32,559 nt of DNA from Candidatus Helarchaeota archaeon. GTDB taxonomy: Archaea; Asgardarchaeota; Lokiarchaeia; Helarchaeales; RDOG01. The position numbers and the translations under genes were made by a program. A model generated the notes under the pieces. The model was not told where the DNA came from. It ran no database searches and saw nothing but the letters and a program-made list of their open reading frames with translations. Position 1 is the first letter of the stretch. Every line of letters begins with the position of its first letter. Of this stretch, positions 1 through 31,300 are shown in pieces. The stretch lies in assembly GCA_029838215.1 (NCBI GenBank), contig JALGVI010000048.1, forward strand, positions 1 through 32,559, given 5' to 3'.

Positions 1-33
1 GATTAGGAATGAAAATTCAAGGAGTGTTTTAAC

Positions 34-792
34 GTGGGAAAGATATTAAGCGTTCACAGTTTTCGAGGAGGAACGGGTAAATCAAACATTACAGCAAATT
101 TAGCCGTTGCCTGCGCAATGTATGGAGATGCCCGTGTTGGAGTCATAGATACCGACATTCAATCCCCAGGAGTTCACGTGATCTTTGGACTTGGCGGAAA
201 AAAACTCCAGCATCCGCTCAATCAATACCTGCAAGGGCAGTGCAAGATCGAAGATGTTGCTGTCGATGTGACGAAATCCCTGAAACTAGAAAAAGGGCAA
301 CTCTTCATGTTCCCTGCGGCCTTGGAAGCCAGCGAGATCACCAAGATACTTCGAGAGGGCTATGAAGTGAGCATGCTCTCGGAGGGGTTTAACCAAATCA
401 TCGATAACATGAATTTAGATTACTTATTGATAGACACGCATCCAGGATTGAATGAAGAAACGTTCCTATCCATTGCAGTTTCGGATGGTTTATTCGTAGT
501 AATGCGTCCAGACTCACAAGATTACCTGGGAACATCCGTAACGCTTGAAATTGCCAAAAAACTGGATGTCCCGAACATATACATGATCATCAACAAGCTT
601 CTCCCAAAATATGATGTTGCATCCGTCAAGAAGGAAGTAGAGAAAACTTACAAGATTCCTGTTGCGGGCATTATTAAGTTCTATGAGGAACTTGCAGATA
701 CTGCCAGCAAGGAAGTTTTCATCACGATACATCCTGAACATGAATTGACAGGAATCTTTAAAGAAATTTACGAAATTGCCCGTCAAATATAA
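34..792 (+). CDS. ParA/MinD-family P-loop ATPase
   Basis: A 252-residue ATPase of the ParA/MinD (deviant Walker A) family, whose members position proteins, DNA or membrane complexes by ATP-driven dimerisation. The phosphate loop is FRGGTGKSNIT at residues 10-20. The nucleotide-contacting K16 is present, but the family's signature lysine (KGG) is an arginine, R11. The DTD switch region lies at 40-42 and the Walker B-like LLIDTHPG at 131-138. The start is GTG: an in-frame TGA at 10-12 closes the frame upstream, no other start lies between, and GGAG at 21-24 has good spacing. The C-terminal helix (about 239-252) is amphipathic and could touch membrane as in MinD, but this is a guess. The next gene begins 14 nt downstream, so the two are probably co-transcribed. 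The family is clear; the cargo is unknown. Confidence 0.9.
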   Translation: MGKILSVHSFRGGTGKSNITANLAVACAMYGDARVGVIDTDIQSPGVHVIFGLGGKKLQHPLNQYLQGQCKIEDVAVDVTKSLKLEKGQLFMFPAALEASEITKILREGYEVSMLSEGFNQIIDNMNLDYLLIDTHPGLNEETFLSIAVSDGLFVVMRPDSQDYLGTSVTLEIAKKLDVPNIYMIINKLLPKYDVASVKKEVEKTYKIPVAGIIKFYEELADTASKEVFITIHPEHELTGIFKEIYEIARQI

Positions 793-806
793 CATTGGGG
801 AACACC

Positions 807-1493
807 ATGGTTGAGGGAGACAAAAACCTATCTTTATTGCGGAACATCTCCGATCTACAAGCAAGCTTCAGTGAAATGACGAAAGAATTCCAGGCATTAA
901 TGAATAACAGCGAGATTCAGCAGGCAGTTCTAAAGCAACTTGGAGACATGTTCCAAAAATTTACGAGAATGCGGGAAGCATTATCCAGCATAATGAATTA
1001 TTTTGATTCAATTTTGCAGAAAAAACCCCGAAAGAACTTATCTACTTTAAGTATCATTGATACGATAAACATACCTGATAATCTTCGCAAGAGCATGATG
1101 GCAGTCATCCGATTTGGAAAGGCAACTGCAGAGAAAGTCGCTTCAAGGACTAAGAGAGAACCAACCGTAGAAGAGGAATATCTATCAATGCTTGTCCAGA
1201 TGGGTCATCTTAATGTCGAATCGAAGGATGGCAAGCAAGTTTATTCATTTTCAATGGGAAAGAGGAAATCACGCATATCAGATGAAATATGGAAGTCCCT
1301 CATCAAGGACAGGACCGAGATGATCAATTTCGTATGTTCAACGGAGATTGAAAAATCCGAACTTAAAAAAATGGATTTAGACGAAATGAAAAAGATGGTT
1401 TCAGGAATTGATGAGGATCTCAACGCCATCAAATCATATTTAAATGAATATATAACATCATTATCTGAACTTCAAAAAAAATACAAATTTTAA
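807..1493 (+). CDS. coiled-coil / winged-helix-like protein, partner of the MinD-like ATPase
   Basis: A 228-residue protein I do not recognise. Residues 1-70 look helical and coiled-coil-forming. Residues about 88-152 have the pattern of a winged helix: two helices, then ATAEKVASRTKREPTVEEEYLSML-like recognition segments (106-130) and a beta-wing ending in DGKQVYSFSM (141-150). Residues 180-226 are again coiled coil. The ATG at 807 is chosen over the TTG at 795 because GGGG at 797-800 then sits 6 nt ahead of it. It lies 14 nt behind the MinD-like gene, an arrangement typical of ParA/MinD partners, so it may be the adaptor or DNA-binding partner of that ATPase. That role is inferred from position and shape only. 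Confidence 0.75.
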   Translation: MVEGDKNLSLLRNISDLQASFSEMTKEFQALMNNSEIQQAVLKQLGDMFQKFTRMREALSSIMNYFDSILQKKPRKNLSTLSIIDTINIPDNLRKSMMAVIRFGKATAEKVASRTKREPTVEEEYLSMLVQMGHLNVESKDGKQVYSFSMGKRKSRISDEIWKSLIKDRTEMINFVCSTEIEKSELKKMDLDEMKKMVSGIDEDLNAIKSYLNEYITSLSELQKKYKF

Positions 1494-1570
1494 ATCCGAT
1501 TCACGTCATCAGAAGCAGAAGTCTGCCCACTCAATCATGGTGAGGTTATCATCGTTGAATAGAAAGTGAA

Positions 1571-1581
1571 ATTTTATTTAT
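1571..1581 (+). promoter_or_regulatory. TATA box for the giant coiled-coil gene
   Basis: The AT-rich box TTTATTTATT lies about 55 nt before the ATG at 1634. Transcription would start near 1602-1607, giving a leader of about 30 nt that carries GGGTGA at 1622-1627, 6 nt before the start. This suggests the long coiled-coil gene can be transcribed independently of the two genes before it. Confidence 0.4.
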
Positions 1582-1633
1582 TAAGATGTAAGAATAAATG
1601 TTACCCGTCAGGATCGATTTTGGGTGAGATTAA

Positions 1634-4429
1634 ATGACAGATTTAACCGTGAAGTTTCAACAAAAATTTTTAAAAAAATTGAAGAAAGGGCTTGAAGGTT
1701 TTAACGCCGCCGAGAAATCATTCCAAAGAGAGAATGAAACAACAAAAGAGCGGATAAAAACAAATCTGACTAAAATTTTCAATAAAGAATTCACCAAAAA
1801 GAATAATTCGATCCTGCAAAAAGAACTTGCACCAGTTGAGAATTCGATTTTTACGTTATCCAACAAGTTCGATGAACAAATTGAAAAAACAAAACAAGAA
1901 GCTGAGAATTTAATCAATGATTTCATTGAAAAATTGCTGAATCTCTCCGCTAACATAAATGATGAAATAATGAATAAGACCAAATCAGTAAAAAGTAATT
2001 TTGATCAATTACATGAAGAAATTTCCAAGATTTTTGACACAAACATATCGTATTTTTTAAATCAAGTTAAACTGTCCGAGGAAAAACTCAATTCGGATAA
2101 TGAAATGGCATACAAAAACAATTTTGAAAAAATAAAAGAATATTTCGATTTATCCATTGGAAATATTAAACAAATTGAGGAGTCAGAATTAAATCTCATC
2201 TCAAAAACGAAAGATTACATAGACGATACTTTAAACGCAAACAAGCACCAATTAAAGGAAGAAGTAAACGAGCTCGTTGTTTTCTTTAAGGAAACCCTCA
2301 GTAAATATCTTGAGGATTTTAATGCCGCCCATGATCGCTTGATGGGATTACTTCAAGAAAAAGTTACTGATTTTAAAACACGCATCCATGAATTCCATGA
2401 AGAGATTTCAAAACAACACGAAGGATTTAAAAAAGGATTACAAGCTCAAAATATCACAAATCTTGAGCAACTTCAGGGAATCTTATTCGACATTATTATT
2501 AAAATATTGCGTAAGATGAACGAAAAGTTTGAGAGAAATGTTCAGGAGTTACTAGAAAGCATTAAACAACAGGTCGCAAGTACCATTAAGCTCTTCCAAA
2601 ATGAAATCATTCAATATGAAGAAGATTCATACAACATATTTCATGAAATGATTTCAAGCCAAGAAAATGCGTTCAAAAAGCTGAAAGGAAATGTTGATGA
2701 AGTAATTGACGAATTTCATGATGACATTTCTCAATTAATAAAAGAATTTAAAACGGATTTATTAAAAACACTTGAAATTAACGAAAAAGAACATTCAAAC
2801 AGTATTGAAAAAATTACAAGTGAGATTTTGACGGCAGTCGAGAATAAGAATCAAATTTTTGAACGAATTCAAAATCAGTTCCTTGAAGTATTAGAAGTAA
2901 TCAATGAGAAAGTCATTGAGTCAGATGATCGCCTATTCAACGTCGAAGACAAAGGAGTCTACAACATCATCAATGACTCCACGTTTCGAAAAGAAATTCG
3001 AAATGTCAGGGCCGTTACGGCATTATTAAATAAACAAATTGAAGAACTAAAGACGCAACTACCTGCATTTAACCAGAAGTGCAAGGTCGATTACCAAGAA
3101 AAAATCAAGGAAGTAATTCCAAAAATCCTGACCGAAACCCACGTTGCGTTTCAAAACGACCTGAAAATGATGGCAGCAAATTTCGAAAATGAACTTGCAA
3201 AACACCAAGAAGGATTGCAAGCACGCATTGCTAAGTTAAAACAATCCGAAACATTTTTTGGGTTAGTGAATCAACACTTGCAGGTTTTTAAAGAAAATAC
3301 AGAATCATTGTTTGAGAAAATGAGCCTTCTTTCGAATAAATTTAAAGAAACCGTGAATTCTGCTTCGAATGCTTTAAACGAGAAAATAGTAGGCATGACG
3401 AATGCGGTTCGAGAACAACATCAATTAATTCAAAATACTTTTCGTTCTAATTTCGAGGAGATTTTCACGCAAAACCTCCAAAACGTAACAGTCTACGTGG
3501 AGCATCTTTTTACAAATAATGAACTACTTCCTATTGAATTCTCTAACTCGCTTGAAGAATTTGATGAGTTATATTCAGGATTGGCAAAAAATATAAGCAA
3601 ATTTCAAAAGTCAATTACCGAAGAATTTAATAACATGACTCCCGACTTGATGGGAAAAATAAATGAAAGCATGGATGTCTTTTTCAAGGATGTTAATGAT
3701 GACTTGGTAAGTTTTTCATCGGAGAGTAAAAAAGAAACGGAAAAAAGGATTGAAGATTTAAAGACTGCAGTCATCGAAAGAGTTCGGACACACAATCAAT
3801 TATTTGAAGATAATGCTTCTAAAGCAGATCAAGATATAAAGCAAGTAATTGAAGAAACCGCAGCGGGATTACATGAGATCATAGAGAAAAACGAAACTTC
3901 GGCTACATTAATATATAATAGTGCCGCAGAAGAAGGTGCTCAATTTTTTAAACGAATAGATGAAACAATTGGGACGTTTAGGAAAAATTTTTCCGATTCA
4001 TTCACGAATCTCAAGCAACTCACGATAGACAAAGTCTCCGAAACTACAAATAAGCTGCTCGATGTATTATTAGAATTTCCCGTGATGGTTCGTTCGGAAT
4101 ATGATGAAGAGCTCGAGAACTTCAAAAAAGAAATGCAACAATTCACGAATCTTCATGTCGACGTTCTTGTCAATGAGAAAGTCACTTTTATTCAAAACGT
4201 AAAAGAACATTCTACGGCTCTATTTAATCAACTTCATGATTCAGTGAATAATGATAAATTGTTGAACATGTTTTTAGAAGAAATCAATCAAAGACTGGAT
4301 GCCTCGATCGAACAGTTTCTCACGAGCTACGTGAAAATAACAAAGAAAATTCACGATCTTTTTATAAGGCTTTCAGAAAATGACCAAGAATTCTTGGCTT
4401 TCATGAGCGAAACGATTGAAGAAAAATAA
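1634..4429 (+). CDS. giant coiled-coil protein (931 aa)
   Basis: A 931-residue, almost entirely helical protein with no recognisable enzyme domain, signal peptide or membrane segment. It is rich in Lys, Glu, Asn, Gln and Phe, has no Trp, one Cys (in NQKCKV) and only about six prolines, as expected of a long rod. Hydrophobic residues recur at heptad-like or 11-residue spacing throughout. Some local segments resemble each other, such as EISKQHEGFKKGLQAQ and ELAKHQEGLQARIAKLK, hinting at degenerate internal repeats. It follows the MinD-like ATPase and the coiled-coil/winged-helix gene on the same strand after 140 nt with its own promoter. Candidate roles are a cytoskeletal or scaffold filament, an SMC-like tether, or a membrane-coating amphipathic protein. 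None can be shown from sequence. GGGTGA 6 nt upstream supports the ATG start. Confidence 0.85.
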   Translation: MTDLTVKFQQKFLKKLKKGLEGFNAAEKSFQRENETTKERIKTNLTKIFNKEFTKKNNSILQKELAPVENSIFTLSNKFDEQIEKTKQEAENLINDFIEKLLNLSANINDEIMNKTKSVKSNFDQLHEEISKIFDTNISYFLNQVKLSEEKLNSDNEMAYKNNFEKIKEYFDLSIGNIKQIEESELNLISKTKDYIDDTLNANKHQLKEEVNELVVFFKETLSKYLEDFNAAHDRLMGLLQEKVTDFKTRIHEFHEEISKQHEGFKKGLQAQNITNLEQLQGILFDIIIKILRKMNEKFERNVQELLESIKQQVASTIKLFQNEIIQYEEDSYNIFHEMISSQENAFKKLKGNVDEVIDEFHDDISQLIKEFKTDLLKTLEINEKEHSNSIEKITSEILTAVENKNQIFERIQNQFLEVLEVINEKVIESDDRLFNVEDKGVYNIINDSTFRKEIRNVRAVTALLNKQIEELKTQLPAFNQKCKVDYQEKIKEVIPKILTETHVAFQNDLKMMAANFENELAKHQEGLQARIAKLKQSETFFGLVNQHLQVFKENTESLFEKMSLLSNKFKETVNSASNALNEKIVGMTNAVREQHQLIQNTFRSNFEEIFTQNLQNVTVYVEHLFTNNELLPIEFSNSLEEFDELYSGLAKNISKFQKSITEEFNNMTPDLMGKINESMDVFFKDVNDDLVSFSSESKKETEKRIEDLKTAVIERVRTHNQLFEDNASKADQDIKQVIEETAAGLHEIIEKNETSATLIYNSAAEEGAQFFKRIDETIGTFRKNFSDSFTNLKQLTIDKVSETTNKLLDVLLEFPVMVRSEYDEELENFKKEMQQFTNLHVDVLVNEKVTFIQNVKEHSTALFNQLHDSVNNDKLLNMFLEEINQRLDASIEQFLTSYVKITKKIHDLFIRLSENDQEFLAFMSETIEEK

Positions 4430-7097: not shown

Positions 7098-7138
7098 GAA
7101 GTAAAATCATTTCAATTCAAGTGAGGATCGTGGAGTCC

Positions 7139-7771
7139 ATGTCGAAGGATGAACAGAACTTGGTAAAGCAAGCGATTGAATTTGTTGCGGAAGGCAATAC
7201 TCAGGAAGCCATCGCCTGCTTGATCGAAGCTTTGAATAATGACGACTGGTCTATTCGATCCTATGCTGCCCAGATCTTAGGAGAAATTGGGAAAGTCTCA
7301 CTGGATGAAAAATTATTCAGGAAAATCATTGATAGAATGTTAGAAGCCATCAAAATCGAGAAAGATGGTTGGGTTCGTGAAGCATTCACTAAATCATTTG
7401 GAAAATTGGGGCAAAATCATCCGGAAGTAATTCAAGAACTCCTACCTCCATTGCTTTCAGTTCTAATGGAAGATGATCACGATGGCGCTCGGGGAAGTGC
7501 GGTAAAAGCAATCGGGGACTTGGGAAGAATTCGCCCTGAACATGTTGAAAAATCACTGCCTGACTTGGCTGAAAAATTGGAGAGCGATGAATCTTGGCTC
7601 GTGCGATACTATTCAGCATATGCATTGGGAGAAATTGGAAAAACCATCCCCGAAAAAATAGAAACTTATCTTGAAACTCTAACGCGAGTAAACGAAAATG
7701 ACGTGGATAATGGAGTCCAAGATGCAGCGCGTGATGCTCTCGAAAAGATAAAAACGGCTTTAAATCAATAA
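7139..7771 (+). CDS. HEAT-repeat protein (about 210 aa)
   Basis: A soluble all-helical protein made of about five HEAT repeats, the paired-helix units used as protein-binding scaffolds. Recurring signatures include DDWSIRSYAAQILGEIGK, DGWVREAFTKSFGKLGQ, DGARGSAVKAIGDLGR and ESWLVRYYSAYALGEIGK, spaced about 37-40 residues. No catalytic residues are visible. GTG at 7121 and 7130 are alternative starts in the same frame; ATG 7139 is chosen because the conserved region begins just after it. It ends 14 nt from the flippase gene, which faces it, with an A/T-rich stretch between that could terminate both. The partner is unknown; HEAT proteins of this size often dock onto or regulate a larger complex. 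Confidence 0.85.
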   Translation: MSKDEQNLVKQAIEFVAEGNTQEAIACLIEALNNDDWSIRSYAAQILGEIGKVSLDEKLFRKIIDRMLEAIKIEKDGWVREAFTKSFGKLGQNHPEVIQELLPPLLSVLMEDDHDGARGSAVKAIGDLGRIRPEHVEKSLPDLAEKLESDESWLVRYYSAYALGEIGKTIPEKIETYLETLTRVNENDVDNGVQDAARDALEKIKTALNQ

Positions 7772-7785
7772 AAAAAGAAAAAAAA

Positions 7786-9507
7786 TTAGTCGGCAGATTT
7801 CTCTTCTTCTGTTTTTGTTTTTTGATTCCCGTACTTATAGAAGGGTGACTTTTGATTGATCTTTCTTATGGTTTCAACGAGGTTCTTCAAGATTGGAAAT
7901 CCACCAAAGAAGTCAAGGTCTTCATCGGCGAATCCTGCAAGACCGAGCATGCATAAAATGAAAATCCCGACAGGAATGATTGCACCACCTAGAAAAATGA
8001 GAATGGCATAAGTCGTATGAATTATTCCAGAAAGGATGATTCCAGCATTAGTGAACGTTTCTGCGAAATTGAGGTTGAGCATGATTAAATAATTGAACGG
8101 AACGAACAAAGAAACCAAATAATAGATTAGAATTCCAACAAACACGCTCACGGCTCCCTTCCATAAGACGTCAGTAAATTGACGGCTTGAAACCGAAACA
8201 CGTTTCAAGATATATCGGAAGCTAAATGGAAATAAAATCACGCAAATGATTAATAGACAAACGGGGCCAACATAAAGTGCAAATATGGGTGGAACTAGGG
8301 CTAAACCTAATGGCACGGCTATTATCTGGAACACTGTTAAAATTAAGATCAGAATAAATCCAATTTTGGCTTCACCACGGCCAATTGATAGACTACAAGC
8401 GAGAAATATCAAACCAATAAAAACGACCGCAACAGATTGAATGATGAACGGTAAGAATCCGGGAACATATTCAGGACCATGAATGACGAGTAATAAAGTC
8501 ATTGCTTGGCTGACATAAAGCGCAAGAAACAGCACGGATAGATTGTAACCCATCCGAAATGATGTTTTTACCAGCGAATCGATTTCTTGTTGGTCCTGAC
8601 GTGCGTGTGCCTCGGATATGGCAGGGACCTGTGGCCAACCAAACACGCAAGCAGATGCCATGACTCCAGCATAACCAGTGAAAATACTATAGATGCTTAC
8701 TATTGGACTTGTTGGAGTGAAAATTAGAGTATAATAGATCGATGATATCGCATATATGGTTCCAATGAGAATCAACATTGGAAAAGCAGAATACATGCCG
8801 TATTTTAAAATTGACTTTATCTCTGTTCGATCGACTTTTCCGATTAAAGCATTCATCTTGTAAGGTGCTGCCTTTTTCAAGAGAAAAACACCTGCCACGA
8901 TTTGAAAAATTGCCCCGATAAAAGCCAATCCCATGGCGATGATGATCCAATTTAGCGGCACGGGCATTATCAATCCAATTAATCCAAGTACGGAGCCGCT
9001 TGTTGCTAAAAAAGAAATAATGGAAACGTAATCGAATCGTTGAAGACCAGTAAGATTTCCAATAAACCAATCTCGGATGAAGGCAATGAAGACGGCAATT
9101 GAGACGATTAAAAACACGACACCTAAGAAGAAATTATAGGCAATGGTTATGATACCCATGATGATTAACAAGATAGAAAAAGTCAACCCCAATAGACTCA
9201 TCACGATGAAACCAGCTCGAGCGTGTTTGATAGCACTCGTTTCAGATTCAACCAAACCTTCTGAGATATATTTCGAGAGAGCTTGATGCATGCCCCCTGA
9301 AATCCAAGTAAATGCAAGACTTAATGAAAGACCGGCTGCAACCAAGCCATATCCTTCAGGACCGATCCCGACATCAGATCTTGAAAAAATGGCAGCAAAT
9401 ATCCATCCAACAACACCAGCACCCAGACTGAATACTAAAAGATATCCACCTCCGCCGATGATCTTTTGGGCGGCGATTTCATCCTTTTCAGAGCTTGTAC
9501 CACTCAT
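7786..9507 (-). CDS. MOP-superfamily flippase (polysaccharide / lipid-linked glycan type)
   Basis: A 573-residue integral membrane protein with about 14 predicted helices and the layout of Wzx/RfbX-like members of the MOP exporter superfamily, which flip lipid-linked sugars across the membrane. The N-terminal signature GGGGYLLVFSLGAGVVGWI, the following GPEGYGL and the amphipathic loop GGMHQALSKYISEGL are typical. The C-terminus is a charged cytoplasmic tail ending KTKTEEEKSAD. The ATG at 9507 is preferred over the TTG at 9528, since GAGG lies between the two. It is a lone gene, convergent with the HEAT-repeat gene and divergent from the ModE-like gene. The dolichol-kinase-like gene a little upstream makes a polyprenol-linked glycan plausible, but no glycosyltransferase is nearby. 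Confidence 0.85.
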   Translation of the reverse strand: MSGTSSEKDEIAAQKIIGGGGYLLVFSLGAGVVGWIFAAIFSRSDVGIGPEGYGLVAAGLSLSLAFTWISGGMHQALSKYISEGLVESETSAIKHARAGFIVMSLLGLTFSILLIIMGIITIAYNFFLGVVFLIVSIAVFIAFIRDWFIGNLTGLQRFDYVSIISFLATSGSVLGLIGLIMPVPLNWIIIAMGLAFIGAIFQIVAGVFLLKKAAPYKMNALIGKVDRTEIKSILKYGMYSAFPMLILIGTIYAISSIYYTLIFTPTSPIVSIYSIFTGYAGVMASACVFGWPQVPAISEAHARQDQQEIDSLVKTSFRMGYNLSVLFLALYVSQAMTLLLVIHGPEYVPGFLPFIIQSVAVVFIGLIFLACSLSIGRGEAKIGFILILILTVFQIIAVPLGLALVPPIFALYVGPVCLLIICVILFPFSFRYILKRVSVSSRQFTDVLWKGAVSVFVGILIYYLVSLFVPFNYLIMLNLNFAETFTNAGIILSGIIHTTYAILIFLGGAIIPVGIFILCMLGLAGFADEDLDFFGGFPILKNLVETIRKINQKSPFYKYGNQKTKTEEEKSAD

Positions 9508-9578
9508 TTTTCTTGCACGAATCCTCAAATTTTTAGGGAAATTTCAGATGAGAAAGATTAATTCTAACGATTTCCTTC

Positions 9579-13307: not shown

Positions 13308-14417
13308 TTATAGATGATAGGAAATCAATGAATCGAAGAAGAACAACAACAGCACGCCGATGGCAATGATCAATAGAAGGACAGAAAGAAACCAGCGAGA
13401 TTTAGACCACTGTATTACTTTTTTGCCGTCTAGGATTGCAATCGGAACTAGATTAAAAATTCCAAGAAAGAAATTCAAGAACACGCCGATAACCAGAGGC
13501 GATTGAAATCCATCTAGTAACCCAAGCCCTGTCATGAATGCAGATTTCCCGAAAATAAATAGAAGTGCCAACAAAATCGTGCCAAAAGAGAAGTTATAAA
13601 GTGGACCTGCTAAGGCGATCTTTCCCATTGTCTTTTTTGCTTGGGCTTGTGGTGGAATCATGACTGCTCCCGGCAATGCGAATTTGAAAGGTAGAAATAT
13701 GCTAATGGCAGAAATGATCGTAAAAAATGGCGTTAATCTGAACTCGCTCCAATGCCCAAGTCGTATGCTTGCAAATTTATGCGCTAATTCATGACCGATG
13801 AATGCGACCACGCCCACTCCTACGGCAGTCATGAGCATGGCGAAAATGAGAATGGGAGGGTATGGAAGAATCGTGAAAATTTGACCGAAAATTATGAGAA
13901 ACATGCTCAATGTAATGCCGAAAATGATGAGGGTTGCTACAGACAATTGCCATACTTCTCGCTTGCTGGTGATCCCTAAGATCGGTTTTTCGGGTTTTTT
14001 CACGTGTCCCCACGGCACGAGCAACTTTCGAAAGCCCTTTGTATCGTACACGTAATAACGGACAACGGTTTCACCCGTTAAAGGATCAACATATTCTTCT
14101 ATATCAAAAACATTTTCAGGAATTTCGTGGTCATACTCATATTCAGATGATGAAAAATCCTCGGAAAATGGAGTGATCCTGCCCGTATCTCCCGCTTGAT
14201 CCACAAAATCTTGTTGCACGGGTCCTGATGAAGGCACGTCAACATGATAATCATCGTGAGATTGATATTGTACTTGTTCACGGTGTCTTGGACCCCGAAT
14301 TAGGTTCTTGCAGTCATGAGCTTCGGGAAGGCGATGATCTGCACAAAAGCTCAATTGACAGTATTTGCATTTAAAAGGCATGTATATCTCTTTACCGCAG
14401 TGGTCACATTTAACCAT
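13308..14417 (-). CDS. AN1-type zinc finger fused to an M50 site-2 protease
   Basis: A 369-residue membrane protein joining two modules. Residues 1-40 are a complete AN1 zinc finger with C4, C7, C17, C20, C25, H28, H34 and C36. An acidic linker of about 100 residues follows. Residues about 155-369 form a six-helix intramembrane metalloprotease with HELAH (209-213), AGPLYNF (270-276) and NLVPIAILDG (322-331, D330), the zinc ligands and active-site pattern of peptidase M50. Such enzymes cut membrane-bound proteins; the AN1 finger, which in eukaryotes associates with ubiquitin and proteasome systems, may recruit substrates or partners. TTTTATAAAA at 14446-14437 is centred 25 nt before ATG 14417, so the message is probably leaderless and TTG 14432 is not used. 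Confidence 0.9.
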   Translation of the reverse strand: MVKCDHCGKEIYMPFKCKYCQLSFCADHRLPEAHDCKNLIRGPRHREQVQYQSHDDYHVDVPSSGPVQQDFVDQAGDTGRITPFSEDFSSSEYEYDHEIPENVFDIEEYVDPLTGETVVRYYVYDTKGFRKLLVPWGHVKKPEKPILGITSKREVWQLSVATLIIFGITLSMFLIIFGQIFTILPYPPILIFAMLMTAVGVGVVAFIGHELAHKFASIRLGHWSEFRLTPFFTIISAISIFLPFKFALPGAVMIPPQAQAKKTMGKIALAGPLYNFSFGTILLALLFIFGKSAFMTGLGLLDGFQSPLVIGVFLNFFLGIFNLVPIAILDGKKVIQWSKSRWFLSVLLLIIAIGVLLLFFFDSLISYHL

Positions 14418-14436
14418 CAGGACTAACCTCAACTAG

Positions 14437-18154: not shown

Positions 18155-19341
18155 TAGAGCACCTCTTTGATCTTTGCCAATATTTCCTCAGGTGAATGAA
18201 GTTCGCCCCCGATCTTGCCAAAACGAATTACTTCAGCATTTCCCCTCGAATACTCAGATACCTTGTGAAAAATTTGTCCCATGTTCATCTCAGGGACGAT
18301 AAAATATTTGGTCTTCTGGCTCAGATTGAAGATGAGTTCATCTGCAAAGGGCCAAATTGTTATCAATCGAAGATTTCCGACGCTAATATCCTGCGCACGT
18401 GCCATCTCAACGGCTTCAATTGCAGGACGCGATGTTATGCCGTGGCTCACGATGATGATTTTTGGATCATCGTCAAGGTATTGAGCTTCATACCTGACGA
18501 TGTCATCTCTATTGTCTGAAATTTTTTCGTAAAAACGCCTTACAAGTTCTTCATGGACTTTAGGGTCTTGTGTTGCTGGATACGATTTCCAATCATGAGT
18601 TAGCCCCGTGAGATAAGTATGGTATTCATCACCTAATTTGTCCATTTCCGGTACCTTGCTTTCAGGATGGGTGAAACCGGTCCGAAATGGAAGGTATTGA
18701 GATACGTCAATGGTGACAGGAGAGCGCTTCTTGATAACCACGTCATTTGGGTCAGGAATTATTAAGGATTCACGTAAATGAGCTGTAATGGCATCAGACA
18801 AGATGATGACAGGAGTTCGATATTTATCCGCAAGATTGAAAGCTTGGATGGTGATATCTAAACAATCTTGAACACCATTCGGAGCAAGTGCTATGATACT
18901 ATGATCACCGTGCGTGCCCCACCGTGCCTGCATTATATCCCCTTGGCTTGCCTTTGTTGGTTGACCCGTTGATGGTCCGGACCGTTGAACATCCACGATC
19001 ACGATGGGTGTTTCAGTCATGCAAGCATACCCAATATTCTCTTGCATGAGCGAAAAGCCGGGACCGGATGTTGCAGTCATCGTTCGGATTCCATTCCACG
19101 AGGCACCTATAATGGCAGCAATTGCAGCAATTTCATCTTCCATTTGAAGAAACATTCCATCAAGTAACGGCAAGAACTTAGCCATTTTTTCAAGAATTTC
19201 GGTGGCGGGCGTTATGGGGTATCCCGCGAAAAATCGGCATCCGGCTAAAAGAGCTCCATATACCATGGCATCATTACCCGTAACGAATTGCTTCTTTGGT
19301 TGAAGAATGTCTTCCAATTTAATTGCTTTATCCTTCAGCAC
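18154..19341 (-). CDS. korA: 2-oxoacid:ferredoxin oxidoreductase, alpha subunit
   Basis: A 395-residue alpha subunit. Signatures in order are GCRFFAGYPITPATEI, MEDEIAAIAAIIGASWNG, TSGPGFSLMQENIGYA and VQRSGPSTGQPTKASQGD, the last typical of the 2-oxoglutarate-type enzymes, followed by a transketolase C-terminal-like domain with HGITSRPA. GTG at 19341 is chosen because AAAAGGAGG lies just before it; the ATG at 19359 and GTG at 19377 upstream are inside the preceding gene. The start overlaps korD by 14 nt, a translational-coupling arrangement. It supplies the substrate-binding half of the active site together with beta. Confidence 0.92.
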   Translation of the reverse strand: MLKDKAIKLEDILQPKKQFVTGNDAMVYGALLAGCRFFAGYPITPATEILEKMAKFLPLLDGMFLQMEDEIAAIAAIIGASWNGIRTMTATSGPGFSLMQENIGYACMTETPIVIVDVQRSGPSTGQPTKASQGDIMQARWGTHGDHSIIALAPNGVQDCLDITIQAFNLADKYRTPVIILSDAITAHLRESLIIPDPNDVVIKKRSPVTIDVSQYLPFRTGFTHPESKVPEMDKLGDEYHTYLTGLTHDWKSYPATQDPKVHEELVRRFYEKISDNRDDIVRYEAQYLDDDPKIIIVSHGITSRPAIEAVEMARAQDISVGNLRLITIWPFADELIFNLSQKTKYFIVPEMNMGQIFHKVSEYSRGNAEVIRFGKIGGELHSPEEILAKIKEVL

Positions 19342-19573
19342 TTGTTGCCTCCTTTTCATTTTCAAATTCCTCGACACTAATGGCGAAATCAGGGCAGATT
19401 AGCTCGCATCTCTTGCAATTGATACAGGCTTCGGGATCTTTGACTTCTACAACATCGTATCCCTTCTTATTAAATCGACCTGAAAAATCTAACACGTTTT
19501 TCGGGCAGACCTCAATGCACAAGCCGCAACCTTTACAACATTCTTCATTTATCACGGGAACCAAGAATTTCAC
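19328..19573 (-). CDS. korD: ferredoxin-like delta subunit of 2-oxoacid:ferredoxin oxidoreductase
   Basis: An 81-residue protein with two [4Fe-4S] motifs: CCKGCGLCIEVCPKNV (12-27) and CINCKRCELICPDF (51-64). It shuttles electrons from the catalytic complex to free ferredoxin. It is the first gene of the D-A-B-C operon, the archaeal order. The start is GTG at 19573 with no clear ribosome site; a TATA-like ATTATTTAGAT (19601-19591) centred about 23 nt before it suggests a nearly leaderless transcript. The upstream gene is divergent. Confidence 0.93.
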   Translation of the reverse strand: MKFLVPVINEECCKGCGLCIEVCPKNVLDFSGRFNKKGYDVVEVKDPEACINCKRCELICPDFAISVEEFENEKEATSAEG

Positions 19574-19590
19574 CGCAAGGAAAACGCTTA

Positions 19591-19601
19591 ATCTAAATAA
19601 T
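19591..19601 (-). promoter_or_regulatory. TATA-like box for korDABC
   Basis: ATTATTTAGAT on the minus strand is centred 23 nt before the GTG of korD. The message would start at or just beside the codon. CAGATATCTA (19617-19626) lies about 15 bp further upstream and resembles the direct repeats before the FabG-type gene. Confidence 0.4.
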
Positions 19602-19604
19602 GAA

Positions 19605-21767
19605 ATGGGCGCAGTTCAGATATCTAAATATCCAAAGAAAAATTATAGCACGTCCAATAATACTTCATTGATGGATTCGTTAAATATATTTGGAAGCCTG
19701 AGTTTTAAGAATTTAGTAAAAAATCCCGAATTTCGTCAATTTTTGAGGGCTTTAGGAGGAGTGAATATCCATTCAGATGTGGAAAACATCGTTCCGTCAT
19801 ATTGGACATCAACTCGTTGGAGAATTGAAAAAATCAAAGGTAAGGATTACGTCTTATCCCCTGCATTTTACAGAGATGAAGATTTAAGCATTCGGTTTGC
19901 CATTCGCGTGGACAAGGACAAATTCCAACTAAACGTTCATGTAAAGAAAAAAAACGAAGAGAAAATACTTGATTCAATTGCATGTTATAAAATCGTAACA
20001 GAATACATGGAAGATGAAAAGAAAAGCACGTACAGAGTCGAGTTGACACCGTTCGAAGAATTATTCGTGACCATTTCGAATCTAGATGCTTATTTTCAGG
20101 AAAAATTACCGATATATGAAACTTGGGACTTGAATATTGTCAATCAGGCATTTGATATCGTGATCGAACGGGGATATGCCACGCAAGAGATTCGGAAGAA
20201 GAAATGCAAGGAGATCACTGAAAACATAATTCTCTTATCGGAAGATGAAGATCTCTACAAGGCGCAAATTTACATTCAAATCAAGTCCTTGCTGGATTTT
20301 TGGGATTTTGACTGGTTTAACGATCTCAATGAGCATGTTGATTTGTTGGGTTTTCTTCACGAAATCGCGGCAAAAGAGAGTTCCGAAGAAATTGAACACA
20401 AGATTGCATTCATAGCCGAGAGGCGAACGGATGAGCGACTCTTGGATAAATTCATTACAGAAATGACAACCATGAATTTAAATGCTAAGAATCGAGTTTA
20501 TTGGTTTGTTTCCTGCATAAAGCGCCAATCAATTCGCCGCAGGCTTGAAAGCATCTTGTTAAGACGTTTAGAACGAGAGAATGAAACGAATTCCAAGAAC
20601 ATCATCGAACTATTACTAAAAATAGGTCATGTTGAAAATAAATTACTGCTTTTCGAGAAATTTTCACGGTTGGATTTAACAACGAAAATATTCATTTTAG
20701 AGAATCTTGAATCAAACTTAGATCTCCGTCACGTGCCATTTCTAATGCAACTTTTAGAAGATAGAAACTGGCAAGTTCGGCAGAAAACCATCGAAATTTT
20801 GGCTCTAATAGGAGATATTAAAGTTGTCGAGCCCATCATCATTCATCTCGATGATTCGCATTTTTTGGTTCGTTCTCAAGCGGCTTCTCTACTCGGTCAA
20901 TTTAAAAGCAAGATTGCATTGAAGCCTCTCATCTTACGATTAAGAAAAGAAGAAAACATTAACGTGCAGATGAGCATATTGGATTCCATTGAGGAAATAA
21001 AGGAAAAATCGGCTTCATTTCCATTAATCGAGACTTTCAGGAACAAGCAATTTGAAGACAAAGTCCAAACCAGAATCATAGAAGTCCTTGCAAGGATTGG
21101 TGGAAGCAAGGTAGAAGAATTCTTGAAGGAATTGATGACTCCGAAAACCACGAAACACTTACTATTAGCGGCTCTGGAAGCGGCTAAATTGTTAAATGAG
21201 CAAGAAATAATTAAAAGCGTTTATCAAAATTTAACACATCCCGAACCAAGTGTTCGAATGAAAGCACTTGAAACGATTCGATTTTTTCCAACGCCATCAG
21301 AACCAGAAATAATCTTTGCTCGTCTTAAGGACGAGAGAAGCGTTCAATTGGAAGCAATTAGGACGATTGGGCACTTACAGATTAAGAACGGTTATATTCA
21401 TCTCGCACAATTGCTAAAATCAACAGATGATGAGATTGTTCGAGAAACGATCCTTTCGCTCGGTCGAATTAAAGATGAAAGGGGAATATCTTCCTTATTG
21501 AACATCTCGGACATCCGTTTTAGAAATCACGTGGCACTAGCTCTTCCAAAACTGATCAAGCACCCAACGATTTCTGCACTCATGAAACGTCTAATTAATC
21601 CAGATTGGAAAGTCCGGTTATCAGTCGTTCGGACAATTGGTGAGTTTAAAAACCCGGAATCAATTCCTGCCTTGATTTTTTCAATTCAAGATAAAAACGA
21701 AAACGTCCGCTCTGAAGCAAGGAAATTCTTATCAGAATATGAAAAGTTAAAAATAGAAATGAATTGA
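19605..21767 (+). CDS. large HEAT-repeat protein (about 720 aa)
   Basis: A soluble scaffold protein. The N-terminal 340 residues are an unrecognised mixed domain followed by helical stretches with possible diverged repeats. The C-terminal 380 residues hold about ten HEAT units of the PBS-lyase kind, for example DRNWQVRQKTIEILALIGD, DSHFLVRSQAASLLGQFKS, DDEIVRETILSLGRIKD and NPDWKVRLSVVRTIGEFKN. No catalytic motif is visible. The open frame extends further upstream but would overlap korD. ATG 19605 is the first that does not, and ATG 19671 is a credible alternative because ATTATAG at about 19641 suits a leaderless start there. It ends with no spacer against carS. Function unknown; probably a protein-interaction platform. 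Confidence 0.8.
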   Translation: MGAVQISKYPKKNYSTSNNTSLMDSLNIFGSLSFKNLVKNPEFRQFLRALGGVNIHSDVENIVPSYWTSTRWRIEKIKGKDYVLSPAFYRDEDLSIRFAIRVDKDKFQLNVHVKKKNEEKILDSIACYKIVTEYMEDEKKSTYRVELTPFEELFVTISNLDAYFQEKLPIYETWDLNIVNQAFDIVIERGYATQEIRKKKCKEITENIILLSEDEDLYKAQIYIQIKSLLDFWDFDWFNDLNEHVDLLGFLHEIAAKESSEEIEHKIAFIAERRTDERLLDKFITEMTTMNLNAKNRVYWFVSCIKRQSIRRRLESILLRRLERENETNSKNIIELLLKIGHVENKLLLFEKFSRLDLTTKIFILENLESNLDLRHVPFLMQLLEDRNWQVRQKTIEILALIGDIKVVEPIIIHLDDSHFLVRSQAASLLGQFKSKIALKPLILRLRKEENINVQMSILDSIEEIKEKSASFPLIETFRNKQFEDKVQTRIIEVLARIGGSKVEEFLKELMTPKTTKHLLLAALEAAKLLNEQEIIKSVYQNLTHPEPSVRMKALETIRFFPTPSEPEIIFARLKDERSVQLEAIRTIGHLQIKNGYIHLAQLLKSTDDEIVRETILSLGRIKDERGISSLLNISDIRFRNHVALALPKLIKHPTISALMKRLINPDWKVRLSVVRTIGEFKNPESIPALIFSIQDKNENVRSEARKFLSEYEKLKIEMN

Positions 21768-25096: not shown

Positions 25097-25103
25097 ATAC
25101 GTG

Positions 25104-25724
25104 ATGAAAAAAGGGTCTGATGTTCCAATGAAAAAAAATGAAGAGAGATTTGAACCCGATTTCTCCGAGGATTCCGCAGAAAAAAAAGCGAAAGAAGTTA
25201 TCGAGATATCTAAAGCAGAATATGAACATTTAAAAGAACAGGATAAGTTGGCTAAGCGTTACCTATCCAGCCTTCATCAGATACAAGCAGATTTTGAAAA
25301 TTTCAGGAGAATTGCGGAGAAAAATAAGGAACATTATATCAAGTACGGGAATGAAAATATCATTAAAAAGTTAATTCGAATAAATGATGACTTGATTCGA
25401 GCCGTGCAGATGGCAAAAAGTCCCAAAGATGAAAATATAACCTTAAATGATTACGAAACTCTACATGCAGGATTAAGAATGATTCAAGAGAATCTTTCAA
25501 GACTTCTGGACTCAGAAGGCGTCAAACCAATCAATGCAAAAGGAAAGCCGTTTGATCCTTATGAACACGAAGTCATGTATGTAGAAGATACAACAGGAGT
25601 TCCGGATAATACATGCCTGGAAGAGCTTGAAAATGGTTATTATTTCAAGGATAAAGTCATCAGACCCTCAAAAGTGAAGGTATCACGTTATAACAAGCAA
25701 AAAAGTGAGGAAATTAGTGTTTAA
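25104..25724 (+). CDS. grpE: nucleotide exchange factor GrpE
   Basis: A 206-residue GrpE, the DnaK partner that releases ADP and substrate. A charged disordered start is followed by a long helix (about 35-100) with LSSLHQIQADFENFRRIAEKN, the family's dimer stalk, then the beta domain with GVKPINAKGKPFDPYEHEVM, ending NGYYFKDKVIRPSKVKVSR. Length and motifs are normal. Starts at GTG 25101, ATG 25104 and ATG 25128 are all possible and none has a strong ribosome site; 25104 is chosen. It begins an operon whose next gene, dnaK, is 26 nt downstream, so supply of cofactor and chaperone is matched. Confidence 0.93.
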   Translation: MKKGSDVPMKKNEERFEPDFSEDSAEKKAKEVIEISKAEYEHLKEQDKLAKRYLSSLHQIQADFENFRRIAEKNKEHYIKYGNENIIKKLIRINDDLIRAVQMAKSPKDENITLNDYETLHAGLRMIQENLSRLLDSEGVKPINAKGKPFDPYEHEVMYVEDTTGVPDNTCLEELENGYYFKDKVIRPSKVKVSRYNKQKSEEISV

Positions 25725-25750
25725 ATTAAGTAAAAATAAGGAAGTGATAC

Positions 25751-27616
25751 ATGATGCCAAAAAAAATTTTAGGAATTGATTTAGGAACTTCCAATTCAGC
25801 CGCAGCAGTCCTCATGGGTGGCAAGCCCACCATCATTCCGAGTGCTGAAGGCGTTTCAATCGGTGGAAAGGCATTTCCATCCTATGTAGCGTTTACGAAA
25901 GATGGACAGCGACTAGTTGGTGAACCAGCAAGACGACAGGCCATTTCCAATCCAGAACGAACCATCCAAGCAATTAAGCGTAAGATGGGTACAAACTACA
26001 AGGTAACAATTGATGGAAAAAGTTATACTCCTCAAGAAATTAGTGCAATGATCTTGCGAAAGATCAAGGAAGATGCAGAGGCATTTATCGGTGAGGAAAT
26101 AAAGGATGCAATCATCACGGTTCCAGCATATTTCAACGACAATCAACGACAGGCAACTAAAGATGCAGGCAAGATCGCAGGATTAAACGTTCTTCGATTA
26201 ATTAACGAACCAACTGCAGCAGCCGTTGCTTATGGTCTTGATAAGGAAGATAAACACCTAACAATTGCCGTTTTAGATTTGGGTGGTGGAACTTTTGACG
26301 TTACCATCATGGAGATGGGTGATGGTGTCTTTGAAGTCAAATCGACTGCAGGAGATACTGCTTTGGGTGGCACAGACATGGATAAAAAACTTGTCGATTA
26401 CATCGCCAATGAATTTCAGCGTGAACAAGGCATTGATCTGCGAAAAGACCCGATGGCACTTCAACGACTTCGAGAAGCAGCAGAAAAAGCAAAAATCGAG
26501 TTATCCAATGTTACGAGTACCGAAATAAATCTTCCATACATTACGGCAGATTCGAATGGACCCAAGCATCTCACGATGACAATCACGCGAGCAAAATTGG
26601 AACAGATAATTGAACCCGTGTTGGATCGACTTGATGGACCAATCAAACGAGCATTAAAAGATGCAGGTCTGAAAACGGTAGACAAGATAATTTTAGTGGG
26701 CGGACCAACGCGAATGCCATCAGTTCGTGAGCGTTTTGCAAAATTCTTCGGAAAAGAACCTGAACGCGGTATCGATCCAATGGAATGCGTTGCAATGGGT
26801 GCCGCAATTCAAGGTGGAGTCTTAACTGGTGAAGTCAAAGATATAATACTTCTTGATGTTACGCCATTATCGCTAGGCGTCGAAACTTTGGGCGGCGTGT
26901 TTACGAAACTCATTGAACGAAACACGGCAATTCCAACGCGAAAAACAGAGATATTCTCAACAGCAGAGGATAATCAGTCCGCAGTAACAATCCATGTTCT
27001 TCAAGGAGAACGACCCAAAGCTGCAAATAACATAACGCTCGGGAAATTTAACCTTGTTGGAATTCCTCCAGCACCACGCGGTGTTCCACAAATCGAAGTA
27101 ACATTTGATATCGATGCAAACGGGATTCTCAACGTCTCAGCAAAAGATCTAGCGACTGGCAAGAGCCAAGCCATTACAATAACTGCAAGTACGAAGATGT
27201 CTGAGGAAGAGATACAGAAGAAAATAAGAGAAGCAGAATCTCACGCAGAGGAAGACCGAAAATTCAAGGAACTTACTGAAACCAAAAATGCCGCAGAGGC
27301 ATTAGTATATCGTATTGAAAAAGTAATGAAAGAGAACGAAGAAAAACTCGGAGACCTGAGTGGAAAGATCAATCCATTAATCCAAAACCTCAGAGGTGCT
27401 ATTGAAGCAAATGACGTCCAAAGGATGAAAGAAGGAATTGAAAAATTGCAAAATGCTTTCCACGAAATATCGCAAAAACTCTATCAGCAACAAGGACCTG
27501 CAGGAGCAGAACAACAGGCATACCAATCCCAACCAGGATATGAACAACAATACCAAAATTACCAGAACGCAACAAATCCTGACGATGCGGTTGATGTAGA
27601 GTTCGAGGTGGATTAA
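25751..27616 (+). CDS. dnaK: chaperone DnaK (Hsp70)
   Basis: A 621-residue Hsp70. ATPase signatures are [12 protein letters not shown] (9-20), [31 protein letters not shown] and [13 protein letters not shown]; the substrate domain includes [14 protein letters not shown]. The N-terminal lobe lacks the insert found in proteobacterial DnaK and is of the Gram-positive/archaeal kind. The tail is Gln/Tyr-rich and ends [11 protein letters not shown], comparable to the acidic VDAEFEEV end of bacterial DnaK. AAGG at 25738-25741 lies before the ATG. Archaeal DnaK genes are generally taken to derive from bacteria, and the surrounding operon agrees. dnaJ follows after 81 nt, so a second promoter or processing site could lie there. 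Confidence 0.96.
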
Positions 27617-27697
27617 AAAAAGACAATTTTTAATCTCCCTTCCCTTTTTATTTTCGTGCGGTGAAAATAAATCGGAGAGAAGTATTGAGGTGAGTTT

Positions 27698-28687
27698 GTG
27701 CCAAAGAAAAACCTATATGAACTTCTCGGAATAAAGAAAGGTGCATCAAAAGAAGATATCAAGCGTGCCTTTCGTAAAATGGCTAGAAAATATCACCCAG
27801 ACGTGAATCCAGGTGATAAAAATGCAGAAGAGAAATTTAAAGAAATAAATCAAGCTTATCAAATCCTCATGGATGATGAAAAGCGAAAAATGTATGATCA
27901 GTTTGGCGTGATTGATGGCGATCCTTCTTCAAGTCCCTTCCAAGGAAGAGCGGGACCCGGTGGAACTTATACGTATTATACTACGGGAGGTCCCGGTGGC
28001 TTTGACTTCAGTGAAATATTTAGCAGGGTAGGAGGACGGGGAAGCGGAGTCCACGTGAATGTCGGAGATTTTGACTTCTTTAATGATTTAGGAGATATCT
28101 TCGATGTTTTTACAGGAGCACGCAGTACCCGAGGTAGAAAGAAAACGAGAAGACCACGAGCAGGTGAAGATCTTCGTTACACCATGGAAATATCGCTAGA
28201 AGAAGCTTTTCATGGAGGGGAACAAAGAATTTCCTTTCAAGATCCCATAACTAACAAAAACAAAACCCTTACGATAAAGATCCCTCGAGGAATTGCAGAT
28301 GGACAAAAACTTCGTCTTGCAGGCGAAGGAATGCCCGGGATAAATAATGGACCACCAGGTGATCTTTATGTGGTCATCAAGATTCGTCCTCATCCGATCT
28401 TTAAACGAGAAGGGAATGATTTACTGGTTAAAATTCCAATAAAATTAACTGATGCCGTTCTAGGTACAAAAATTCGAATTCCAAATATAGAAAATGAAAA
28501 AATCACGATTACCATACCACCAGGTACTCAACCCAATCAGAAATTCAGGGTAAAAGGAAAGGGTTTTCACATCTTGAAATCGTCGGAACGTGGAAATCTC
28601 ATTGTCGAAACGATCGTGAAAATTCCAAAGAAATTGAACTCGGAACAGCGTCAGCATTTTGAAAAATTGAAAAAAATGAATGTATAA
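27698..28687 (+). CDS. dnaJ: DnaJ-family co-chaperone without zinc finger (CbpA/DnaJ type II)
   Basis: A 329-residue J protein. The J domain (1-68) has [10 protein letters not shown] with the HPD triad at 33-35, followed by a Gly/Phe-rich linker (about 75-140, [19 protein letters not shown]). It then goes directly into the two C-terminal substrate-binding domains ([16 protein letters not shown] onward). The four CxxCxGxG repeats of classical DnaJ are absent, so it is of the CbpA/DnaJ type II architecture. The start is GTG, with GAGGTGAG about 7 nt upstream. It stimulates DnaK and delivers substrates. clpB follows 18 nt later. Confidence 0.93.
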
Positions 28688-28705
28688 ATTTAGGTGGTGT
28701 AAGTA

Positions 28706-31300
28706 ATGTTAAGATTTGACAATTTTACAATCAAGTTACAAGAAGCATTGATTGCTGCCAAGCAATTTGCAGAAGATAGTGGACATCAACAAATTGAAGT
28801 TGAACATTTTCTGAAAGTTCTAATCGAGCAGCCTGATGGTCTTGTACCGCTCATCCTTCAAAAAATAGGCTTAGAACCATCCCGCATTTTGCAAGACTTA
28901 ATGCGCGAGATTGAAAAGATTCCACGTGTTTCGGGATCAGGTTTCGGTGAAGCTACAATTTCACGTAGTCTAAAGCAACTTCTCGATGATGCATGGAAAG
29001 AAGTAGGGTTCATGCACGATTCCTACTGCAGCGTTGAACACGTTCTCATTGCCATCGTAGAATATTCAAAGACTCCGTCCGCAAAGATACTCAAAAAATA
29101 CAATGTTAATAAAGAGAGAATCATGCAAGCTCTGGTAACCATACGCGGAGCCCAAACCGTGACGGATCAAGACCCGGAAGGAAAATATCAGGCACTTCAA
29201 AAATATAGTAGAAATCTAACGGACATGGCTCGTCGAGGTAAGCTGGACCCGGTGATTGGTCGAGACGATGAGATTCGAAGAGTCATCCATGTTCTTTCAC
29301 GACGGACTAAAAATAATCCCGTGCTAATTGGTGAAGCAGGAGTAGGAAAAACGGCAATTATTGAAGGATTAGCACAGCGAATTGCAAGCGGCGACGTCCC
29401 TGATAGCATCAAAAATAAAGAAGTAATTGCATTAGACTTAGGTGCACTGGTCGCAGGTTCTAAATATCGAGGAGAATTCGAAGATAGACTAAAAGCAGTA
29501 TTGAAGGAGATAAACCAAGGTCAAGGAAAATATATCCTTTTCATTGATGAGCTCCACACGTTAGTCGGAGCAGGAGCCGCAGAAGGAGCCATTGACGCTT
29601 CCAACATGTTAAAACCTGCCCTAGCCAGAGGCGAATTACGTTGTATCGGTGCCACGACCATAAATGAATATCGAAAATACATAGAAAAAGATGCCGCACT
29701 TACCAGAAGATTCCAAACAGTATATGTCGCCGAACCGTCCATTGAAGATTCCATTGCCATCCTTCGAGGACTAAAAGAACGATACGAAAATCACCATGGC
29801 GTGAGAATACAAGACTCAGCAATAATAGCTGCAGTGACATTATCCCATCGTTACATAACGGATCGCTTTTTGCCAGATAAAGCCATAGACCTCATGGACG
29901 AAGCAGCTTCACGACTTAGAATTGAAATTGATTCCATGCCAACGGTCATTGATGAACTAGAACGGAAAATCATCCAACTTGAAATCGAAAAAGAAGCCCT
30001 GAAAAAAGAAAAAACAAAAGAATGCGAAGATAACTGCATCAAAATAGAACAAGAACTCGCCGAATTACGCGAGGAAAGCGAAAGAATGAAAAAACAATGG
30101 CGTGCAGAAAAAGAATACATTTCAAAGATAACGTCCATTAAAAAGCAAATCGAAAGCACGCGGTTAGAAGCAGAAAGAGCGGAGAAAGAAGGAGATTTAG
30201 GAAGGGCAGCAGAACTACGTTATGGAGTCCTCACGGATCTTAAAAAACAGTTAGAAGAAAATACAAAGGCCCTAGCAGAAATCCAAAAAGAAGATAAAAT
30301 GCTTAAGGAAGAAGTAGATGCTGAAGATATTGCAGCTGTCGTTTCAAAGTGGACGGGAATTCCCGTGTCCCGAATGATGGAAGGAGAACTCGAAAAACTC
30401 ATCCATATAGAAGACCGCTTGAAGCAACGCGTTGTTGGACAAGACCACGCCCTAACGTTAGTGGCAAACGCAATTCGACGCGGACGGTCAGGAATTCAAG
30501 ACCCAAACCGACCCATTGGAGTCTTCATCTTCATGGGACCAACTGGCGTGGGAAAAACAGAAACGGCAAGGGCACTTGCAGAGTTCCTTTTTGACGATGA
30601 AAATGCAATGATCCGGATTGACATGAGCGAATTCATGGAAAAACATTCCGTTGCTCGGCTCATTGGCGCTCCACCAGGATACGTGGGATATGATGAAGGC
30701 GGGTATTTAACTGAAGCAGTTCGGCGCCGTCCATATAGCGTGGTCCTTTTCGATGAAATAGAAAAGGCACATCCCGAAGTCTTTAACGTGTTATTACAAA
30801 TCATGGACGATGGGAGACTAACAGATGGACATGGTCGAACGGTCGATTTCCGAAATACCATCATAATAATGACCAGCAATATTGGAAGTCGATTAATCCT
30901 TGAAAAGCATCATACTCATGAAGATTTCGATGACGAAACCATACGCAAGACACTCGGAACGCATTTCAGACCTGAATTCATAAACCGCGTGGATGACATA
31001 ATCGTGTTCAATTTCCTCGAGAAAGAACAAATCAAGGCAATCGTGGACATCCAGATTCGCAAGCTCAATAAAATCCTGAGCGAAAAGAAAGTTCAAATTG
31101 AACTCACGGATGCTGCTAAAGAATTTCTAGCACAAAAAGGATTTGACCAGGACTTTGGAGCACGTCCATTGAAAAGAGCCATCCAAAAACATCTTCAAGA
31201 TAAACTGGCAATGGCACTATTGAAGCACGAATTTACAGAAGGCGAAACCATCCTTGTAGATGCGAGTGCCAAAGGTGGACTTGAATTCAAGAAAAAATAA
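28706..31300 (+). CDS. clpB: disaggregase ClpB (Hsp100)
   Basis: An 864-residue Hsp100 that pulls polypeptides out of aggregates together with DnaK. Double Clp-N repeats occupy 1-150. The first AAA+ domain has GEAGVGKT (209-216), pore loop [11 protein letters not shown] (Y254) and Walker B ILFIDELH (277-284). The coiled-coil middle domain spans about 405-535, which is what separates ClpB from ClpA or ClpC and docks DnaK. The second AAA+ domain has GPTGVGKT (611-618) and [13 protein letters not shown]. No IGF/IGL-type ClpP loop is seen, in keeping with a disaggregase rather than a protease partner. AGGTGG at 28692-28697 precedes the ATG. ClpB is patchy in archaea; here it is co-transcribed with its whole set of partners. 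Confidence 0.96.

Follow-up and report, generated by a model that had tools for sequence, protein, structure and literature searches.

A MinD-like ATPase, a winged-helix partner and sensor proteins with a common motif suggest a signalling or positioning module in Helarchaeales and bacteria

Introduction

Many ParA/MinD ATPases are orphans, with partners too diverse to be spotted, and the partners of A/D ATPases are described as contacting the ATPase via short, positively charged, disordered tails (PMC10241942). A DNA-binding protein accompanies such an ATPase in two described systems: FleN/FlhG is a MinD-like ATPase acting with the DNA-binding regulator FleQ (PMC10723142), and in the archaeal gene set AspA-ParB-ParA of pNOB8 a ParA-type ATPase is encoded together with a DNA-binding protein of winged-helix type (PMC5120986).

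The window analysed here comprises 32,559 nucleotides and is one whole contig of a 3.6-Mb, 170-contig Asgard archaeon genome. It opens with a MinD-like ATPase (A) followed by a winged-helix protein (B), and comparison with other archaea and with bacteria adds proteins that carry a common motif, many of them sensors. The gene set suggests a signalling or positioning module, and no description of an ATPase, winged helix and motif-sensor set was found in the open-access literature. Comparative evidence thereby names two partners for a single ATPase, and one of the two is a portable motif carried by widely differing sensors.

Results

Locus and coordinates

The features of the locus are collected in Table 1. 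The initial annotation had claimed three open reading frames at the beginning of the window, and all three were found where it had placed them; the spacing of 14 nt that it gave between A and B holds when the ATG at 807, which yields a B of 228 aa, is taken as the start. The window opens on the edge of its contig and therefore lacks the gene that precedes A. Further along the window, consecutive genes for GrpE, Hsp70, DnaJ and a ClpB-like AAA protein were observed on the plus strand (25101–31300), together with two HEAT-repeat proteins (7121–7771, 216 aa; 19323–21767, 814 aa), a protein that joins an AN1 zinc finger to a peptidase M50 domain (13308–14432) and an ORF of 580 aa without any Pfam match (7786–9528).

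Table 1. Positions of the features described (window coordinates, except the last row)
Feature	Position	Strand	Description
Contig end; upstream gene of A missing	1..33	+	motif-protein gene expected upstream
A, MinD-like ATPase of the HSFRGGTGKSN family	34..792	+	252 aa, GTG start
P-loop HSFRGGTGKSN of A	55..87	+	Arg11 at the MinD/ParA signature-lysine position; Lys16 is the usual lysine of Walker A
B, winged-helix partner, helical arms at both termini	795..1493	+	232 aa from TTG
Winged-helix core of B, residues 87-152	1053..1250	+	helices and two-stranded wing; AlphaFold2 pLDDT 94-98
Basic IW motif following the wing, KRKSRISDEIWKSL	1254..1295	+	R..P..IW..L common to bacterial small winged-helix proteins (alignment)
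Rod, 931 aa	1634..4429	+	Trp-free, 11-residue periodicity; outside the conserved module
Start of candidate motif gene, first 29 codons, VSEKLKINLSKSEVKKEVKKIEESDYFTS	G000:C159 87-1	-	runs off contig end

Family, sequence and distribution of the ATPase

The first frame had been read as a ParA/MinD ATPase, which was borne out by matches above the cut-offs to the Pfam families ParA (2.6e-15), CbiA (3.7e-14) and AAA_31 and by archaeal MinD 1hyq as the best solved-structure match by sequence (9e-14); FleN is also among the solved-structure matches, and the C-terminus of A is short. Curated models gave scores below their cut-offs, both for MinD (TIGR01969, 84.1 of 201.75 bits; TIGR01968, 52.3 of 212.9) and for the KGGVGR-variant AAA ATPases (NF047398, 58.9 of 90 bits). 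The arginine at the signature-lysine position is invariant in an alignment of 12 ortholog sequences, and the same residue was observed in 21/21 Asgard orthologs and in 76/76 other orthologs, the latter fetched partly by an R-containing pattern so that only the Asgard count is unbiased, while 19 of 20 Asgard paralogs carry lysine. A as a known defence protein was considered and rejected, there being just a weak match to a candidate model.

Among 228 Asgard genomes, close orthologs of A (about 50–70% identity) occur in the order of the window, Helarchaeales, and in the Asgard families f18 and f28, and a scan of GTDB genomes exposed abundant relatives (about 50–55% identity) in Cyanobacteria and Chloroflexota, as well as in single MAGs labelled Bacteroidetes and Spartobacteria. 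The ortholog clade is split from the Asgard paralogs at 100/100 in the tree, the 21 Asgard orthologs lie on one side of a branch with support 83/99, and the nearest non-Asgard rows to A of the window are Anaerolineales. Judged by these sequences, A is a member of a distinct MinD-like family, and the tree, which leaves its root and the direction free, would fit a single transfer between bacteria and Asgard archaea. A second, degenerate MinD-like copy adjoins the intact ATPase in some loci, such as L107 (RRGTGRTS), L112 (LRGVGKSH), L121 (HACRHGLGASN) and L135 (YHGVGRSN), suggesting heterodimers.

The winged-helix partner

The second protein had been described as coiled-coil arms around a winged-helix core, and its AlphaFold2 model agrees, with helical arms at residues 7–75 and 163–230 that were modelled with less certainty than the core. 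The identity of the core was a check set beforehand, and it came out in favour of a winged helix by the model, by Foldseek matches to DNA-binding proteins including Sso10a-2, MarR, ArsR and AspA, and by profile matches of the B family, of which the best to a solved structure is AspA (2.3e-5), many MarR/ArsR regulators matching also. A profile made from 30 bacterial winged-helix neighbours only returned two B proteins as its top two matches among 588 Asgard ORFs, that of Hel_GB_A (5.4e-16), a Candidatus Helarchaeota genome of the same order as the window (locus L105, SUPS01000113.1, G082:C277), and that of the window (2.1e-14). On this profile evidence B is homologous to the small winged-helix neighbours of the bacterial ATPases; the arms are present in B of Helarchaeales, and the bacterial homologs, mostly of about 98–123 aa, are without them. 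From its modelled fold B probably binds DNA, which a winged helix need not do.

Conservation of the gene neighbourhood

A search with B only, blind to A, over 228 Asgard genomes gave matches in 23 of them, and a MinD-like ATPase was observed beside the B match in 24 of 29 loci fetched, the locus of the window not counted (in 23 of them inside the roughly 1.5 kb of flank retrieved, and in G082 one gene further on). Winged-helix profile matches lie at most two genes from an ATPase on the same strand in 86/103 cases (expected 24, maximum 39 in 2000 shuffles) and motif proteins in 36/50 (expected 16, maximum 25 in 2000 shuffles), counts that overstate independence as some loci are closely related. 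Across 117 loci, a winged helix was found within two genes of A in 73, the motif within three genes in 39, and neither partner close to A in 20 (about a sixth), and since the bacterial loci were fetched by ATPase-derived patterns with a simple ORF caller, these counts represent enrichment and not rates. A and B are a true conserved pair, with an association far above chance, as had been expected of an ATPase and its partner gene.

The loci of f18 and f28 are without the motif and have longin/winged-helix proteins in its place. In these families (L067–L078, L095–L100) the ATPase ortholog usually comes directly after a protein of about 430 aa with weak longin/roadblock/adaptor and winged-helix matches, which in f28 is itself preceded by a longin/winged-helix protein of about 300 aa; these proteins are another partner type of the ATPase.

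Several further arrangements were observed, such as a second winged-helix/ATPase set followed by a TPR-like protein of about 830 aa in f18 (L088–L090, L101); a second ATPase/winged-helix pair in the genome of the window (L079, G000:C149, 2130–2600 and 2597–3370), convergent and with ends overlapping by 4 nt; and multi-spanning transporter-like proteins adjoining the ATPase in Chloroflexota and in one MAG labelled Bacteroidetes (L126, L156, L160, L177), with a repeat-like region at the C-terminus of the L177 protein. In Asgard archaea, TPR genes are found repeatedly in the vicinity of these modules.

Motif proteins, sensors and fusions

Many bacterial neighbours of the ATPase end in the motif EIxE[ST][DE][YF]FxxLxxKAxxxR. 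The input domains of the motif proteins include CHASE2, dCache-HAMP, GAF-HAMP, an ECF-like membrane domain with HAMP, and cNMP-binding domains, a single motif being common to very different sensor domains, transmembrane or soluble, and in one protein (L138) the DYFxxLQxK core occurs eight times. The Helarchaeales relatives Hel_GB_A and G083 encode, immediately before A, a small soluble protein (110 and 137 aa) with the motif near its N-terminus and a TPR gene nearby, and a motif profile built from bacteria only ranks these two upstream genes 1 and 2 of 588 Asgard ORFs, with E values of 0.001 and 0.048.

When a profile from the Hel_GB_A and G083 pair was applied to the genome of the window, the best place was the terminal 26 codons of contig C159, a match that is weak alone (E 0.034) and lies in a gene cut mid-motif (IEESDYFTS) by the contig end. 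About 4 kb inwards lies a TPR gene homologous to the TPR gene upstream of the Hel_GB_A motif gene; it was rejected as the immediate upstream neighbour of the motif gene, with three other genes between. Contig C159, with the cut-off motif gene and the homolog of the Hel_GB_A TPR gene, probably precedes the contig of the window.

Natural fusions were also observed, such as a cNMP-binding domain, the motif and the ATPase in one 506-aa protein (L108); a degenerate ATPase with a winged helix at its end (L121, 385 aa); and a winged helix with a cNMP-binding domain and a further region, which may be a degenerate ATPase (L157). In the structure model of the L108 protein the motif is built as helices that are interrupted near DYF, and the N-terminal domain has a pLDDT below 50. 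As read from their sequences, the fusions are good evidence that ATPase, motif and winged helix act together.

The rod gene

The third frame had been described as a very long, Trp-free coiled-coil protein, of which the length of 931 aa and the lack of tryptophan stand. Its repeat is not a heptad: the hydrophobic period is 3.66, equal to 11 residues per three turns. Such a period occurs in coiled coils of right-handed type or in amphipathic helices like those of apolipoproteins, and a sub-threshold Pfam apolipoprotein match of the rod agrees with it. The genome of the window holds one full-length paralog with 22% identity (L193, 9518–13325), likewise Trp-free and of the same period, in another gene neighbourhood; the gene after it matches a FUZ/MON1-type longin slightly below the cut-off, and the genes before it we take, by eye from their sequence, to be MoxR-like and vWA-like. 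The gap between B and the rod contains an A+T-rich stretch. Identification of the rod as anti-phage ZorA or as a phage tape measure was rejected, since we take the padloc and PHROG matches to be of a kind that any long helical repeat gives.

Discussion

Proposed mechanism and alternatives

The conserved module has A and B at its core, and in its likeliest reading, for which we put the chances at about even, A serves as a nucleotide-dependent switch between a motif-bearing input protein and B as a DNA-binding output. ATP-bound A, probably as a dimer, would bind B or DNA; in one state of the sensor, the motif would dock on A through its charged C-terminal half and thereby raise or lower ATP hydrolysis, and the altered hydrolysis would cause A to release or capture B. 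The basic C-terminal half of the motif could act as a charged partner tail, since the partners of A/D ATPases are described as using such tails (PMC10241942). These contacts, the role of the motif as regulator of the ATPase, and an output that is transcriptional rather than positional are what we infer from the anatomy of the gene set; as an alternative output, the nucleotide state of A may control the placement of the sensors. A more general form, in which a MinD-like ATPase replaces the kinase and interchangeable sensors with one helical docking motif set its nucleotide state and so control a small winged-helix DNA-binding protein in Cyanobacteria, Chloroflexota and Asgard archaea, is put forward tentatively, as a possibility that we would place somewhat short of even.

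The main rival to this switch is a positioning system, in which A places clusters of motif receptors or scaffolds and B is a nucleoid-side tether or an autoregulator. A/D ATPases generally position cargo, as those of the ParC/PpfA/McdA type do, with partners described as touching them by short charged tails (PMC10241942), and the motif sits at the C-termini of sensors, many of them HAMP membrane receptors, and ends in K/R residues; the soluble cNMP-type motif proteins, however, are no obvious cargo, and the most regular neighbour of A is B, for which a system devoted to positioning alone has no need, so that we hold this reading to be unlikely, if a serious one. DNA segregation, with A as ParA and B as a centromere-binding winged helix like AspA of the Sulfolobus plasmid pNOB8, seems improbable: AspA is indeed both a fold match and the best solved-structure sequence match of the B family, and A matches the PHROG ParA family, but AspA acts through ParB (PMC5120986), which is not adjacent here, B resembles MarR and ArsR regulators equally, and segregation would not account for the linkage to Cache, CHASE2, GAF and cNMP sensors.

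The initial annotation had joined A, B and the rod as the three parts of a positioning or cytoskeletal system, for which the shared strand and order and the start of the rod 140 nt after B would speak. This link did not survive comparison and is very improbable, as the rod has no homolog at 1e-8 in the 227 other Asgard genomes and no relative beside other copies of the A-B pair, including Hel_GB_A, where no rod follows B, and its sole relative is the paralog of the same genome. The rod was accordingly rejected as the third component and should be regarded as a gene of its own, an unrelated neighbour. The third component that does recur is the motif-bearing sensors or adaptors, and a signalling or receptor-positioning module is thereby more likely than a cytoskeleton.

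With two partners named, the tie of such an ATPase to environmental signals becomes testable in cultivated bacteria such as Nostoc. The occurrence of the set in Helarchaeales, together with the longin/winged-helix variant in f18 and f28, adds an example to the study of regulatory modules among the archaea related to eukaryotes.

Comparison with known systems

MinD and its archaeal paralogs, such as MinD2 and MinD4 of Haloferax, have the same P-loop ATPase fold as A, archaeal MinD being its best structure match, whereas A has arginine for the signature lysine, scores far below the NCBIfam MinD cut-offs and is partnered by winged-helix and motif proteins without a MinC/MinE neighbour; no MinC/MinE-type match was found in B or the rod, the upstream side being lost at the contig end. 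The likeness to FleN-FleQ lies in an ATPase with a DNA-binding regulator, as in A with its predicted DNA-binding partner B. FleQ is an AAA+ enhancer-binding regulator, whereas B is a small winged-helix protein and the set of A adds sensors with a common motif; no FlhF, FleQ or flagellar genes were found among the window proteins scanned. In contrast to AspA-ParB-ParA, the A-B module is without ParB, for which no match was seen among the locus proteins scanned, has sensors, and also occurs in bacteria. The A/D ATPase positioning systems (ParC, PpfA, McdA, PomZ) likewise combine an ATPase with a short charged partner segment, but the partner segment of A is a conserved helical signature on many unrelated sensor domains, and a winged-helix protein is present as a further partner.
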